A DNA stretch of 64,000 nt. Source: Metabacillus litoralis. GTDB lineage: Bacteria; Bacillota; Bacilli; Bacillales; Bacillaceae. The notes beneath the pieces are model-generated. The model had not been told where the DNA came from. It saw only the letters and a program-made list of their open reading frames with translations, and searched no databases. The first letter of the stretch is position 1; each line of letters begins with the position of its first letter. The stretch lies in the NCBI RefSeq assembly GCF_007994985.1, contig NZ_VOQF01000008.1, forward strand, positions 1 to 64,000, read 5' to 3'. Below are positions 28,951 to 62,145 of the stretch, in pieces. Both the position numbers and the translations under genes were made by a program.

Positions 28951-30105
28951 ATGAGGGAGCATATTATTGCCGTTTTTATGTGGATTACTGCCGTTTGTGT
29001 TGCGAGTAATATTTATTTACTTATTCCCATTTACTCTGCACTTGCTGATGGATTATCGATTACATATGATGATGCTGTATTTTCCAGTACAATATTTATT
29101 TTTTGCTACGCCTTAGGACTTTTAAGCTTTGGACCAATTTCAGAGAAATTCAACAAGAAGTATGTATTAGTTTTCGGTATGGTCCTTTCTTGCCTCGTTA
29201 CACTATGTCTCTCCTTTTCTTCATCGTTAATAAGCTTTTACACGTTACGAGGTTTACAAGGATTTGTTTTAGGTAGCTTTGCACCTGTAGCATATGCTTA
29301 TTGCTTTGAGGGGTTTTTGCCAAGAATGCGCACCTTTATAATTGCTGTAATTAATACAGGATTTCTAATGGCAGGAATTATTGGACAATTACTCAGCTCT
29401 TCACTTGTATCAATATATAATTGGAAATCAGTTTTTTATTTCTTTGGTGCTATGTACTTTCTGCTTTCACTTTTTTCTCTGTTTGCTCTTCCTAATGTAC
29501 CTAAAAATAGAATGAAGTCTCCACGTCAACTTGCAACACACACTAAGAACCTCCTACAACCACAAATAATAATTGGTTTATTTCTTACCTTTTTCACATT
29601 AATGTCGTTTGTTGCGTTTTACGAGGAGCTTGCTCAGCATTTCGTTAATCAAGAGACAGTGCTTTTTTATAGCCGATGTATTGGCTTAATTGGAACACCT
29701 CTCTCACTTTTCAGTGGAAAGTGGTTAAAAAAACATCCTCCTTTAAATATCATCCTATTGTGTTTGTTCCTTATGATTTGCTCTTTCGCTTTGATGCTTT
29801 TTTCAAAACAGCTTTTTTTCATTACCTGTTTATCTATTTTATTTGTATCAGCCATAGCCGTATTGATACCAAGCCTGATCACTTTTATTGGTGAAGCAGC
29901 TAGCGAAAAGCGAGCAACAGCTATCTCATTATATTCTTTCACTTTGTTAACTGGTGCAAGTGTGGGACCGATCTTTGCAAGCCTTTTACCCTTTCAAGGT
30001 ATTCTTTATCTATTCATCACAATCTTCTTGGTATGCTTTTCTTTACTTATTTTTCAAAAAAGAGGCTGGGACATAATTAAAGAAGTCATACAAAAAGAAG
30101 AATAA
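28951..30105 (+). CDS. Major facilitator superfamily transporter
   Basis: A 384-residue protein with about twelve hydrophobic segments, resembling bacterial MFS drug or arabinose-type exporters (similar in place to yhjO of B. subtilis). The loop 2-3 motif reads GPISEKFNKK, a form of the MFS G-x-x-x-D/E-R-x-G-R-R motif. A GGGGG ribosome binding site precedes ATG. Oddly, the last codons (from the R of KRGWDIIKEV to the stop) are encoded by the left end of an inverted-repeat element beginning at 30062, so the native C-terminus was replaced or extended by the insertion. Substrate unknown. Confidence 0.82.
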   Translation: MREHIIAVFMWITAVCVASNIYLLIPIYSALADGLSITYDDAVFSSTIFIFCYALGLLSFGPISEKFNKKYVLVFGMVLSCLVTLCLSFSSSLISFYTLRGLQGFVLGSFAPVAYAYCFEGFLPRMRTFIIAVINTGFLMAGIIGQLLSSSLVSIYNWKSVFYFFGAMYFLLSLFSLFALPNVPKNRMKSPRQLATHTKNLLQPQIIIGLFLTFFTLMSFVAFYEELAQHFVNQETVLFYSRCIGLIGTPLSLFSGKWLKKHPPLNIILLCLFLMICSFALMLFSKQLFFITCLSILFVSAIAVLIPSLITFIGEAASEKRATAISLYSFTLLTGASVGPIFASLLPFQGILYLFITIFLVCFSLLIFQKRGWDIIKEVIQKEE

Positions 30106-31620: not shown

Positions 31621-31910
31621 TGTATTATTATAATATAGATTTTTACCATTTTATAAAACTTTCTTGATTTTGTTTGGAACCTTTGACTGAGGCCTTGGCT
31701 CGATTATGGGCTTCATTCGCCTGTTGACTGTATATGTCAAGCTAGCGATGTACAATTTTGATCGTTTATTAATGTACATCTTCTTTTTCTAAGTGATCTT
31801 TAATTTGAAAGGAGACCCAACAATATTCACGACTGTTGCGTTGTGTAGAACACAATCTAATATTGCATTTCCTAATTTAGTTGCCAGGAACACAGCATCT
31901 CTTTACTTAG

Positions 31911-32160
31911 GTCCTTCATCAGCTCTATGACGGACTTTTTCTCGAGCTTGCCTCTTGCTTATGTCCTTCATTAGCTCTATGACGGACTTTTTCTCGGGCT
32001 TGCCTCTTGCTTATGTCCTTCTTTGGCTCAATGACGGACTTTTTCTCGGGCTTGCCTCTTGCTTATGTCCTTCTTTGGCTCAATGACGACCTTTTTGCTT
32101 GGGGATACCGTCAATTTTGTCCTTCATTCACCTATTGACGACCTTTTGACAGGACCTCCG
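31911..32160. repeat. Tandem repeat array, 52-bp unit
   Basis: Units start at 31911, 31963, 32015 and 32067 (exact 52-base period), followed by a diverged partial unit near 32124. The unit reads GTCCTTCATTAGCTC, TATGACGGACTTTTTCTCGG, then GCTTGCCTCTTGCTTAT. The last units change GACGGAC to GACGACC. A related array lies at 63213-63385. Non-coding, in the 734-base gap between the signal peptidase and thiolase genes. The rest of the gap (31621-31910 and 32161-32296) shows no gene. Confidence 0.9.
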
Positions 32161-58124: not shown

Positions 58125-59108
58125 TTAATAAACTTTATCACCATTAAAAATTGAGTTTTTAACAACAACATAATCAACATGACGAATGGCATCTAAATGT
58201 GTTCCACCTGCATATGAAATTGAAGATTGTAAGTCCTGTTCCATTTCAGTTAATGTGTCCTGCAAGGAGCCCTTATGCTCAACAAACATTTTTTTACCTT
58301 CTACATTTTTCTTTTCACCTTTTTGGAACTCTGAAGCAGAGCCGAAATATTCTTTATATAGCTTGCCATCTTTTTCAGTTGTTTGACCTGGAGATTCCTC
58401 ATGTCCAGCAAATAAAGAACCAATCATGACCATTGAGGCACCAAAACGAATAGATTTAGCAATATCGCCATGTGTACGAATTCCACCATCTGCAATAATA
58501 GGTTTGCTTGCTGCTTTTGCACACCAGCGAAGTGCTGCAAGCTGCCAGCCACCAGTTCCAAAACCAGTTTTTATTTTTGTAATGCAAACCTTTCCTGGTC
58601 CAATTCCAACCTTTGTTGCATCAGCACCAGCATGTTCCAGTTCTCTTACCGCTTCAGGCGTTCCTACATTTCCTGCTATTACAAAACTCTGCGGTAAGTG
58701 CTTTTTGATATGTTGAATCATTTCGATAACTGCTTTGGAATGTCCATGTGCAATATCTATTGTAATAAATTCAGGTGTAAGTTGTTTCTCTGATAATTGC
58801 TCGACAAATCTATATTCTTCTTCTTTAACACCAACACTTATTGAAGCGATTAAACCTCGAGCATTCATATCTTTAATAAATTCTTCTCTTTTTTCAGGTT
58901 CAAAACGATGCATTACATAGAAATAACCATTTTCCGCTAAGTAAATGGCGATCTTCTCATCTATTATAGTCTGCATATTAGCAGGCACTACTGGTAGTTT
59001 AAATTGATGTCCACCAAGAGTAATACTTGTATCACATTCTGATCGACTGTTCACAACACATTTTGCCGGAATTAATTGAATATCTTCATAATCAAATACA
59101 TTTTCCAT
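58125..59108 (-). CDS. guaC: GMP reductase
   Basis: A 327-residue TIM-barrel enzyme reducing GMP to IMP with NADPH. It starts [16 protein letters not shown] at 59108, with AGGAG 8 bases before; a GTG three codons earlier is less likely. The catalytic Cys is in [11 protein letters not shown]. No CBS domains are present, which separates it from IMP dehydrogenase. The size matches B. subtilis GuaC. A CGAAC motif upstream may be a PurR half-site (see rejected items). Confidence 0.92.
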
Positions 59109-59117
59109 ATCTAGCAC

Positions 59118-59330: not shown

Positions 59331-59386
59331 TGAGGTTGGGACATAATTAAAGAAAATATCCATAAAGACGAATAAATCTAATATAT
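59331..59386. repeat. Left-end fragment of the composite element (copy H)
   Basis: GAGGTTGGGACATAATTAAA, then AAGACGAATAAATCTAA, matches the first ~55 bases of copy C. The core and right end are missing. Confidence 0.75.
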
Positions 59387-59435: not shown

Positions 59436-59462
59436 TGGTGCAACTGGGGGTCAGACCCCAAG
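59436..59462. repeat. Compact palindrome CAACTGGGGGTC/GACCCCAAGTTG
   Basis: 12-bp arms with one mismatch and a single central base. A related GGGACAGACCCCC lies near 59772. No gene is linked to it. Confidence 0.6.
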
Positions 59463-59622
59463 TTGTTCTTCTTTCTAACAAAATAATACAAATCTCCGTT
59501 GTTTTTATGAAAAATGTAGAAATGGAGGTGAAAATTTTGATTCATACACTAAGAGACTACTAAAATAGCTAACTTTTATTTAAATTTGTACACGATGTTA
59601 GTGAATTTTTCTCCATTGTTTA

Positions 59623-59722
59623 ATTTATCGTCGATTTTTTAAATTTATCATCGATTCCGGCTATTTATCTTCGATTTTTAAGATTTATCTTCGATTATGC
59701 GGATTTATCTTCCATTCTTCAA
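59623..59722. repeat. Five-unit tandem repeat with exact 20-bp period
   Basis: Units start at 59623, 59643, 59663, 59683 and 59703. Each has the core ATTTATCnTCGATT (last unit TCCATT) followed by six variable bases (TTTTAA, CCGGCT, TTTAAG, ATGCGG, CTTCAA). Non-coding, about 100 bases downstream of the Amt-chemoreceptor gene's end. Confidence 0.9.
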
Positions 59723-59797
59723 AATTCGACAAATCAGCACTGCACTATACAATAGTCCTTTAGCACGCTGAGGGACAGACCCCCACAGCATAAAACT

Positions 59798-59834
59798 AAA
59801 AAAGATACTTTCGATTTTGAAAGTATCTTTTTTA
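59798..59834 (-). terminator. Terminator of the Amt-chemoreceptor gene
   Basis: AAAAAAGATACTTTC pairs perfectly with GAAAGTATCTTTTTT around GATTTT. Confidence 0.88.
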
Positions 59835-59847
59835 AGTCTATATAATT

Positions 59848-62145
59848 TTACGATGACATCGATTCAGCTGTTCTAAATTTGATAACAGATTGATTTAATT
59901 TTTCATTTTGCTTCTTCATCGTATTTATTTTTTCTACCATTTCAAACGTTGATTCAAGATTTATTTTCATATTTTGATACACTTGATTCATTCTACCTGA
60001 CATCTCTTTAAAGCTATCTTGTTGTTCATATCTTTTTTCTTGAATTGTCGCTGTATCTTTATTTACTCTTTCTAATGTAACTAGGAATTCCTTCATAAAT
60101 GTAGTAACAGTATATACTTTTTCATCAATTAACTTAAATCTCTTTGGCATTTTAATTAATTCATTACTTAATAGCTCAATTTTACCTGATAACTCAATAA
60201 CCTCTGCAAACCCCTGTGTTGTTTCTTCTGTTGTTGATGTAATCATTTCACGAATGTCTTCTGTTGCAAGTTTAGATTTTAGTGCTAGTTTTTTAATTTC
60301 ATTAGCTACAATTGTAAATCCTCTTCCAGATTCACCCGCTCTTGCTGCTTCAATACTTGCATTCAGTGATAATAAATTAATTTGTTCCGATACCTCTGAA
60401 ATAATATCAACCATTTGTTTACTCTCATTTGCATCACTTGTGATTTTTTCGATGTTTTTATTGAAGTTATTCATTTTGAAATTTACTTCTTGATTTATAT
60501 CACCCACTTCATGGACAAATGTGGAAATATTGGTCATTTCCTCCTGAATCCAACTTAGTTGCTTCCCTATTTGTTCAATTGAAGAAAATGCTTGTTGAAT
60601 TTCAGCTATTACTTGATTTTCAACTTCAATCTCTTTTTCTAGCCATTTTTCAGATTCCTCTACAAACGAATAAGTTTCTTCTATTTCTATCATTTGCAGA
60701 CTTGCATTCTCCTTTGATTTCTCACTTAGTGATAACACAGAAGATGTTGTATTAAGAACTGAGGATGTTTGGGTTTTCACCTTATGAACAAGCTCATTTA
60801 ATGTACCTAAGACTGTATTGAAGGCTTCATTTAACTCTGCCATATCTTCTCCAGGTTCATACTTAATTTTCTTAGTCAAATCACCTTTTGCAGCAGCAAT
60901 TTCATTCATGGCAACAATAGTATCTAAAACTGAAATAGATGCACCATGTTCACTAACGTTTAAACCAATTTCCTCATCTTCTTTCCCCACTCTTATGTTC
61001 ATTAAAAATTTCATTACTCCATAGATCAGAAGTCCCATCCCAAAAGCCCATACAAATGCTGTTCCTATCCCAAGAAGCTGTACACCAATCTGTTCCAGTC
61101 TTGTAGCTCGAACAAGATTTTCCAAAGGAGCAAATAACGCCAATGAGAGTGTACCCCATGCTCCACAAACACCATGTACAGCAATTGATCCAATTGCATC
61201 ATCAATCTTAAACACTGAATCTATCGTTCTTATAGAAAAGACAACAATGATTCCACCCATCGCTCCAATTATTAAAGCAAACTCCGGCGTGAGAATATTT
61301 GCTCCAGCTGTTACCGATACTAAGCCTGCTAAAATACCATTAAGTATATCCTCAACCTGAGGTCTTTTATCTAACATCCAACTAATCATTAATGCTGCTA
61401 ATCCACCACTTACAGCACCAAAATGTGTATTTAATGAAATGAGTGCAATATTTATATCTGCCACACCTGTTGAGCCTGCATTAAATCCGAACCAGCCAAG
61501 CCATAAAATAAATACTCCTGTTACAGCCAAAACAGCGTTAGACATTGCAAATTTTCGACTTTTACCATCAGATGTGTATTTACCAATTCTCGGACCAACA
61601 ATAATTGCTGCTGCTAAAGCGACCCACCCACCAATTGAATGTACAACTGTAGAGCCAGCAAAATCGATGAAACCTAAATTCTCTAACCAGCCTTTACTTT
61701 CTCCGTTCCATAAACTGCCCCAAGCCCAATGACCAAATACAGGGTATATTAGACCACTTATCATAATTGTACCTACTATGTATGCACTAAACTTTACTCG
61801 CTCAGCTATGGCCCCCGAAACAATTGTTGCAGCAGTTCCAGCAAAAACAATTTGAAATAAAAGAAAGGCCCAATTGTATGGATCATCCTCTAAACCACGT
61901 AACAAAAACCCTTCTGTTCCAAACCAACCTGATAACGAATCACCAAACATAAGGGCAAAGCCTACTAAAGCAAATACAACTGTGGTGATTAATAAATCAA
62001 TCACATTCTTTAAAGCCACATTAATTGAGTTTTTAGCCCGGACAAGTCCTGCTTCAAGTAAAGTAAATCCTGCCTGCATAAAAAACACTAAAAAAGTAGC
62101 AATAACAATCCATAAAACATTTACATTAAGTATGATAGTCTCCAT
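59848..62145 (-). CDS. Ammonium transporter fused to a HAMP-like linker and chemoreceptor signalling domain
   Basis: A 765-residue fusion. Residues 1-400 are a complete Amt protein of about eleven membrane segments. The pore-lining twin histidines are conserved: His169 in [10 protein letters not shown] and His324 in [13 protein letters not shown]. The [12 protein letters not shown] gate region is at 97-108, Asp161 is present, and the usual Amt tail GLNVSEHG is at 394-401. Residues 403-455 look like a HAMP-type linker ([17 protein letters not shown]). Residues 460-760 are a cytoplasmic helical hairpin with the chemoreceptor tip [20 protein letters not shown] at 590-609. ATG has GGAGGG 5 bases upstream. 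The gene is monocistronic with its own terminator and has no glnK neighbour. Likely an ammonium sensor feeding CheA/CheW; transport may be retained. Confidence 0.9.

Follow-up and report, generated by a model that had tools for sequence, protein, structure and literature searches.

Among the closest described counterparts of the array studied here are the REP and BIME elements. These are dispersed, high-copy intergenic sequences, found for the most part behind coding regions in the gaps that separate convergent or co-directional genes, and roles in supercoiling and termination have been proposed for them (PMC3733652). REPs are palindromes of 20-40 bp with GTAG or CGTC tags, whereas the arrays described below consist of direct repeats that are not palindromic, keep a phase of two helical turns and are closed by a fixed end module.

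Several other systems resemble the arrays in part. The BOX elements of Streptococcus are modular intergenic repeats (boxA-boxBn-boxC), with variable central direct repeats and fixed end modules. The modular build is alike, but the central BOX units, compared here by description only, are about 45 bp long and fold, while the array units are 20-21 bp, in fixed phase and without a fold. In eukaryotic rDNA the Sal-boxes, bound by TTF-I, are several direct copies of a protein site, all oriented alike just beyond the transcription unit's 3' end, and act as a protein roadblock. Here the likeness is in the possible action; the domain of life, the spacing and the protein differ, and for the arrays a roadblock is putative. 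Plasmid iterons are direct repeats of about 20 bp, or two helical turns, that cluster beside a rep gene at a single replication origin. The arrays are also two-turn direct repeats but stand behind about 30 unrelated genes. Tn7-like transposon ends consist of repeated sites of about 20 bp closed by a TGT... terminus; for the arrays no inverted second end and no target duplication was found in the aligned loci, where closely related empty sites are lacking, and the cores are conserved in place. STRR and MIRU-type repeats are short tandem repeats scattered in intergenic DNA, and are not known to combine a fixed end module, a fixed unit number, per-base constraint on the core and free spacers. Finally, CRISPR spacers are unique, about 25-40 bp long and derived from invaders, while the spacers of the arrays are 6-7 bp and are common to species at orthologous loci.

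A literature search among open-access papers found no description of the array family, which is apparently undescribed. We place it among the dispersed intergenic repeats, where it stands out by how clearly it bears the marks of a functional DNA site.

An array of five units and its cassette

The window is the whole stretch of DNA that was analysed, 64,000 nucleotides from Metabacillus litoralis. The initial annotation had noted five units in perfect 20-bp register within an intergenic gap of 730 bp, and both statements are confirmed (Table 1). Four of the five cores match ATTTATCNTCGATT exactly, and the fifth has one mismatch. The gap extends from an IMPDH/GMP-reductase gene to an Amt-MCP fusion gene, both on the minus strand. 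The array was also recovered independently by Tandem Repeats Finder.

Table 1. Positions in the window of the array, of the elements around it and of the two flanking genes.
Feature	Position	Strand	Remarks
IMPDH/GMP-reductase (guaC-type) gene	58125..59117	-	PF00478; other side of the gap
Cassette holding the array	59443..59785		343 bp; sister copy at G000:C6 (L093), 87% identical over 345 aligned columns
Left REP-like palindrome GGGGTCAGACCCC	59447..59459		Cassette start
Unit 1 core ATTTATCGTCGATT	59623..59636	+	Spacer TTTTAA to 59642
Unit 2 core ATTTATCATCGATT	59643..59656	+	Spacer CCGGCT to 59662
Unit 3 core ATTTATCTTCGATT	59663..59676	+	Spacer TTTAAG to 59682
Unit 4 core ATTTATCTTCGATT	59683..59696	+	Spacer ATGCGG to 59702
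Unit 5 core ATTTATCTTCCATT	59703..59716	+	One mismatch; CTTCAA after the core
End module CTTCAA-AATT-CGACAAA	59717..59733	+	CGACA at exactly +10 nt from the last core
Right REP-like palindrome GGGACAGACCC	59772..59782		Cassette end, GGGACAGACCC(CC)
Amt-MCP intrinsic terminator	59797..59828	-	Hairpin 59803-59828, T run 59797-59802; between gene and array
Amt-MCP fusion gene	59848..62145	-	PF00909 + PF00015; 3' end toward the CGACA end of the array

Judged from its sequence, the window copy was probably brought to this place inside the cassette bracketed by REP-like palindromes. The right palindrome lies within 120 bp of 4 of the 35 arrays found in this genome, all of them with the last spacer CTTCAA, and within 120 bp of none of the 26 AGAC-type arrays. 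The orthologous amt-guaC gap of M. litoralis SaN21-6 (G003, L170) does not contain the window copy. The window copy is a case of how REP-like palindromes may bring an array to a new place.

Other small repeats are found in the same DNA. The string GGGACATAA/TTATGTCCC recurs in the window at 59338-59346, at 30068, 30363, 15840 and 36402, and in locus L160. In L160, an orthologous gap without an array, a short stretch has GAGGCTGGGACATAA at one end and its reverse complement at the other, in the manner of a MITE-like element. Further, positions 31906-32147 of the window hold about 4.6 copies of a 52-bp tandem unit with 86-94% matches, unrelated to the 20-bp arrays.

A family of arrays in one genome

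The genome of the window (G000; 4.88 Mb in 75 contigs) contains 127 (52 + 75) places where two cores lie at 20-bp spacing with up to three mismatches, compared with 0 for a reversed control pattern. Single cores with at most one mismatch number 157, and the control pattern gives 15. In all, no fewer than 35 arrays were identified, at 24 loci and in the window; this set comprises the places with a listed core pair of at most one mismatch, so that weaker arrays of the genome are missed. The initial annotation had taken an array that was unique and absent from sister strains as the mark of slippage, and had proposed a search of the genome and of related species. That search, now run, recovered instead a family, with orthologous arrays in sister species.

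In this lineage the core is an asymmetric 14-bp site, ATTTATC NN CGATT, present as direct copies in arrays of about five units (2 to 19). Among the 35 arrays of this genome, 24 have five units, while two, three, four and six units are found in 2, 3, 2 and 4 arrays, respectively. At the end of the array a CGACA-like motif follows exactly 10 nt past the last core in 32 of the 35. The usual end module is AGACWA-N4-CGACAAA: the last spacer is usually AGACWA and begins with AGAC in 26 arrays. The window array belongs to a smaller class, in which the last spacer is CTTCAA.

Some loci carry additional repeats. One array (L096 4279-5868, G000:C15) is interrupted by an insertion between GGCCCCCTTATATCGGACACG and an inverse-like end, with an rve-type transposase gene inside. 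The left flanks of L090, L092, L098, L110 and L111 have about 155 bp in common, although the loci are unrelated; this module, another small repeat, is also present in L158, where there is no array.

Spacing and helical phase

The spacing was measured in chosen array-holding loci from 12 genomes of the genus, with no register assumed. Neighbouring cores no more than 26 bp apart form 366 pairs, of which 361 are separated by 20 or 21 bp, i.e. by two helical turns. In detail, the steps between neighbouring near-perfect cores are 20 bp (313 times), 21 bp (48), 19 bp (1) and 26 bp (4). Between 8 and 38 bp there is no other step; a further 23 pairs are 39-42 bp apart. In G015 and G001, whose arrays reach 19 units, steps of 20 and 21 bp alternate, so that two units span 41 bp; the 19-unit array (L178, G015:C1:1188140-1188499) is built of such 41-bp higher-order repeats.

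Position relative to genes, terminators and replication

Gene neighbours were assigned with a crude longest-ORF caller. On the CGACA side, the neighbouring gene is directed toward the array for 27 of the 35 arrays, and for 22 of 30 loci when tandem copies are merged (p = 0.016); on that side 8 of the 35 have no facing gene end. The orientation of the gene on the other side is even, 15 and 15 among the 30 loci (hand count). By lying downstream of coding sequence in these 27 cases, the arrays share the habitat of REP and BIME elements. A strong intrinsic terminator stands between gene and array in 22 of 35 arrays, while on the opposite strand this is found in 8; the terminator scan detected none on the CGACA side in 13.

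The neighbouring genes are functionally unrelated, and include those for enolase, ClpP, PheT, HisIE, RF2 (prfB), BofC, CtpB, PTS components and transporters. A regulon was rejected because the neighbours have no common pathway. Sites for CcpA (cre) were also considered; a cre-like string can be seen by eye in some left flanks, but the pattern occurs within 200 bp on the left in only 3 of 35 arrays.

With respect to replication, the ATTTATC strand runs against the fork in 30 of 40 arrays of three genomes, by a hand count that assumes the terminus to be opposite dnaA. Such a proportion is about the usual bias of genes between the strands, so the polarity is not informative.

Cores change slowly and spacers drift

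In a comparison between species, 23 of the 35 arrays have an aligned orthologue among 26 arrays of M. crassostreae DSM 24486 (G011), or, in the case of two pairs of copies, share their closest match. Per-position counts are from the 10 gap-free orthologous pairs (45 units), the 13 pairs with gaps being left out. At the 12 fixed positions of the core 14 of 540 comparisons differ (2.6%), whereas at spacer positions 15 and 17-20 the number is 52 of 175 (30%; Fisher p about 1e-22 for core versus spacer). Spacer position 16 differs in 1 of 35 comparisons and the dinucleotide at positions 8-9 of the core in 34 of 90. At fourfold sites of the neighbouring genes 498 of 2848 differ (17.5%). These values inflate the constraint, since only arrays recognisable in both species are counted and orthologues that are decayed or missing exist (L156, L157 and part of L162); arrays decayed in one species fall outside the 23 pairs.

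The number of units in orthologous arrays changes by whole 20-bp units. At the same time the spacers are recognisably shared between the species, locus by locus, which argues that the cores are not renewed by copying of whole units. Selection on the core would be the simplest reading of slow change in the core beside drifting spacers.

A separate observation concerns core position 9. In all 16 T/G changes between the two species, the window's genome has T where the sister species has G; the reverse never occurs. It is as if the preferred site had drifted genome-wide.

Distribution in the genus and the order

The relaxed two-core pattern, with at most one mismatch, is found in 14 of 21 genomes of the genus, in 5 of 6 genomes of genus g2, where the cores read ATATATCGRC, and in single genomes of g5 and g6; the control gave 0. 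No array was detected by this pattern in 7 of the 21, among them G014, which has a drifted array at eno. An order-wide search matched 10 of 198 other genomes, counts that are soft as some matches are doubtful. At least one match, that in G201 (L207), was rejected as an array; read from its sequence it is a cluster of DnaA boxes instead. In another family an array of ATTTATCTGCCATT ends with CGACAAAA at +10 (L205), and in L215 the array adjoins a terminator. A similar array lies between convergent genes on a plasmid of Peribacillus asahii. An origin from phages or plasmids was rejected, as this is the one plasmid match and neither a viral contig nor a phage matched.

Two loci can be followed through the genus. 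On the 3' side of eno, arrays with good cores are present in 9 of 21 genomes (G000, G003, G011, G001, G005, G008, G012, G014 and G015). Decayed arrays are seen in G002, G004 and G019. G006 has a relic of one unit, and the arrays of G010, G018 and G020 are weak or doubtful; four genomes have none and G013 has another core. At the 3' end of pheT arrays are present in 7 of 19 examined genomes (G000, G011 and five others, with G003 outside this count) and absent from the other 12. That arrays are missing from 7 of 21 genomes in the pattern search, and from 12 of 19 pheT ends, indicates that their function is dispensable.

The same layout with other cores

The core is AATCGNNGATAAAT in most Metabacillus, AGTTGCAAGATT in G013 and AATCGCGGATAG in G014. 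The contrast between array types is that of ATTTATC with GTTGCAAGAT. G013 has no array past pheT. Past its eno gene there is CCGTCGAAATTTGTC, which closely resembles the end module found in its relatives, and then five AGTTGCAAGATT units at 21 bp. Clusters of five AGTTGCAAGATT cores at 20-21 bp occur at four further loci of G013 and at one of G008, where the count for one G013 cluster includes a distant degenerate first unit. These loci (L253, L254, L256, L257 and L258 in G013; L252 in G008) make up a second array family, mostly of five units at 21 bp, and most of the clusters lie past a terminator hairpin visible by eye. In G014 seven units of a 21-bp repeat, AATCGCGGATAG, follow eno. As other cores thus occur in the same arrangement in G013, G008 and G014, the layout outlives the core sequence.

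G013 also contains a 12-unit array of ATATATCTYSGATT (L173 5905-6160), whose near-constant spacer, CCGCTG, makes it more like a plain satellite.

A possible protein-bound boundary

Observed directly are the family itself and, in its arrays, the spacing, the end module, the place, the biased orientation, the constraint on the core and the lack of an RNA fold. From these we infer a protein, cooperative binding and a role as a boundary. As a whole, our best reading is that of a family of directional sites in double-stranded DNA where proteins would bind side by side and form a boundary where a transcription unit ends, and to this we give a probability of roughly 0.5. Its parts differ in strength. 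From the sequence comparisons it is likely that the array is under selection as a putative protein-binding array that acts as DNA, while the role as a boundary is tentative.

In such a mechanism a candidate sequence-specific protein would bind each 14-bp site from one face of the helix. Neighbouring bound proteins would help each other, and five sites would give a short one-faced filament, to which the end module, on the side of the gene, would give its polarity. Lying beyond a terminator, the filament might stop polymerases that read through; it might also stop antisense transcription that comes into the gene from the opposite side, or pin supercoils as a topological or nucleoid anchor. The roadblock may be redundant, as the terminators already stop most transcription before the array. 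No binding protein for the arrays was found.

The initial annotation had read the 20-bp period as helical phasing, as in a protein-binding array or iterons. The first part is supported by the two-turn spacing of 361 of 366 steps, the constrained core, the drifting spacers and the absence of RNA structure. Iterons are not borne out: the arrays are dispersed behind unrelated housekeeping genes, with no single origin or rep gene. In general, iterons, transposon ends, RNA elements and bare slippage all fit worse than a DNA platform.

Alternative readings

The alternative that survives best, though we regard it as unlikely, is the end of a mobile element: a Tn7/TnsB-like transposase-binding end with a TGTCG terminus, left by small non-autonomous transposons past terminators. 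The 5'-TGTCG terminus, the sites of about 20 bp and the fixed orientation past terminators resemble such ends, some arrays share the longer left flank of about 155 bp, and array copies differ between species. However, no second, inverted end was found, and the outward-facing pair that is complete in L099 encloses host genes (prfB side to M23/ctpB side). Pairs with and without the array, for which empty sites were sought in M. crassostreae and M. litoralis, have no clean target duplication, in intergenic regions too rearranged to give a clean junction. The window copy and three others do have the REP-like palindrome, and the cassette has its 87% copy elsewhere, but the 26 AGAC-ended arrays of the 35 have no palindrome within 120 bp. 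Further, most arrays are inherited at fixed loci with conserved cores, which dead insertions would not be.

It is improbable that the array acts in the transcript, as part of a 3' UTR or as a small RNA whose five 20-nt repeats are bound. Such an element would explain the fixed orientation relative to the upstream gene, and the constraint on the core could be at the RNA level, but in 22 of 35 cases a terminator separates gene and array. A structured RNA element is recognised by a conserved structure or an Rfam match, and neither is present here: four arrays folded on both strands (eight foldings, z from -1.9 to +1.1) gave no stable fold, and no Rfam match was obtained for the window or for 10 array loci. 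A strict step of 20 or 21 bp, without any of 22-25, is also what phasing on DNA would lead one to expect.

Equally little probability is given to the arrays being REPs of an unusual family that a Y1 (RAYT) transposase mobilises. In its favour, the habitat downstream of genes is that of REPs (PMC3733652), Y1 genes are present in 17 of 21 genomes of the genus, and the window array lies between two REP-like palindromes. But a REP has a palindromic unit, while the array core ATTTATCNNCGATT is asymmetric and the array neither is palindromic nor folds. REPs also flank their RAYT gene; of the 23 Y1 genes examined, only 1 has a clean-core array within 1.2 kb, so there is no general link to RAYTs, and G007, G014 and G018 have Y1 genes with no array by the relaxed two-core pattern.

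It is the palindromes, not the array, that flank a clade of Y1 genes. Two or more palindrome matches lie within 900 bp of the Y1 domain in 4 of 23 loci (L152, L185, L189 and L193). In three of these, L152 (G011), L189 (G008) and L193 (G012), palindromes like the two in Table 1 are found on both sides of the Y1 gene, as for a REP; in L185 (G000) an exact palindrome is on one side and a degenerate pair on the other. The single Y1 gene with an array beside it is that of L152 (G011:C11), which adjoins both array and REP palindromes. As a general mover of the arrays RAYT was rejected on the 1 of 23, and is retained solely in connection with the palindromes on either side of the window copy.

Replication slippage, giving a homogeneous and functionless tandem repeat, is very improbable, for although it would account for unit numbers that change by whole units and for the 41-bp higher-order repeats of up to 19 units in G015, it can explain neither the one core shared by about 30 loci whose spacers are unrelated nor the persistence of the cores while the spacers hold separate orthologous identity, and the contrast of core and spacer between orthologues rules out slippage alone.

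Implications

Read as a boundary, and with the cores of G013 and G014 included, the arrays would be a bacterial counterpart of the terminator-protein arrays of rDNA. It is a more doubtful extension that some Bacillales mark the ends of many unrelated transcription units by a nucleoprotein boundary, the specificity of which would change by lineage while the layout of five units, two turns apart and past a terminator, stays.

Should selection be what maintains dozens of identical arrays behind unrelated operons, there would be a fairly general DNA-binding activity at these places, and protein roadblocks, topological insulation and nucleoid anchoring are candidate roles for it at the ends of transcription units. 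The arrays themselves are a ready bait for the protein, and they form a natural series, with 2 to 19 units, intact and decayed orthologues and arrays of other cores.
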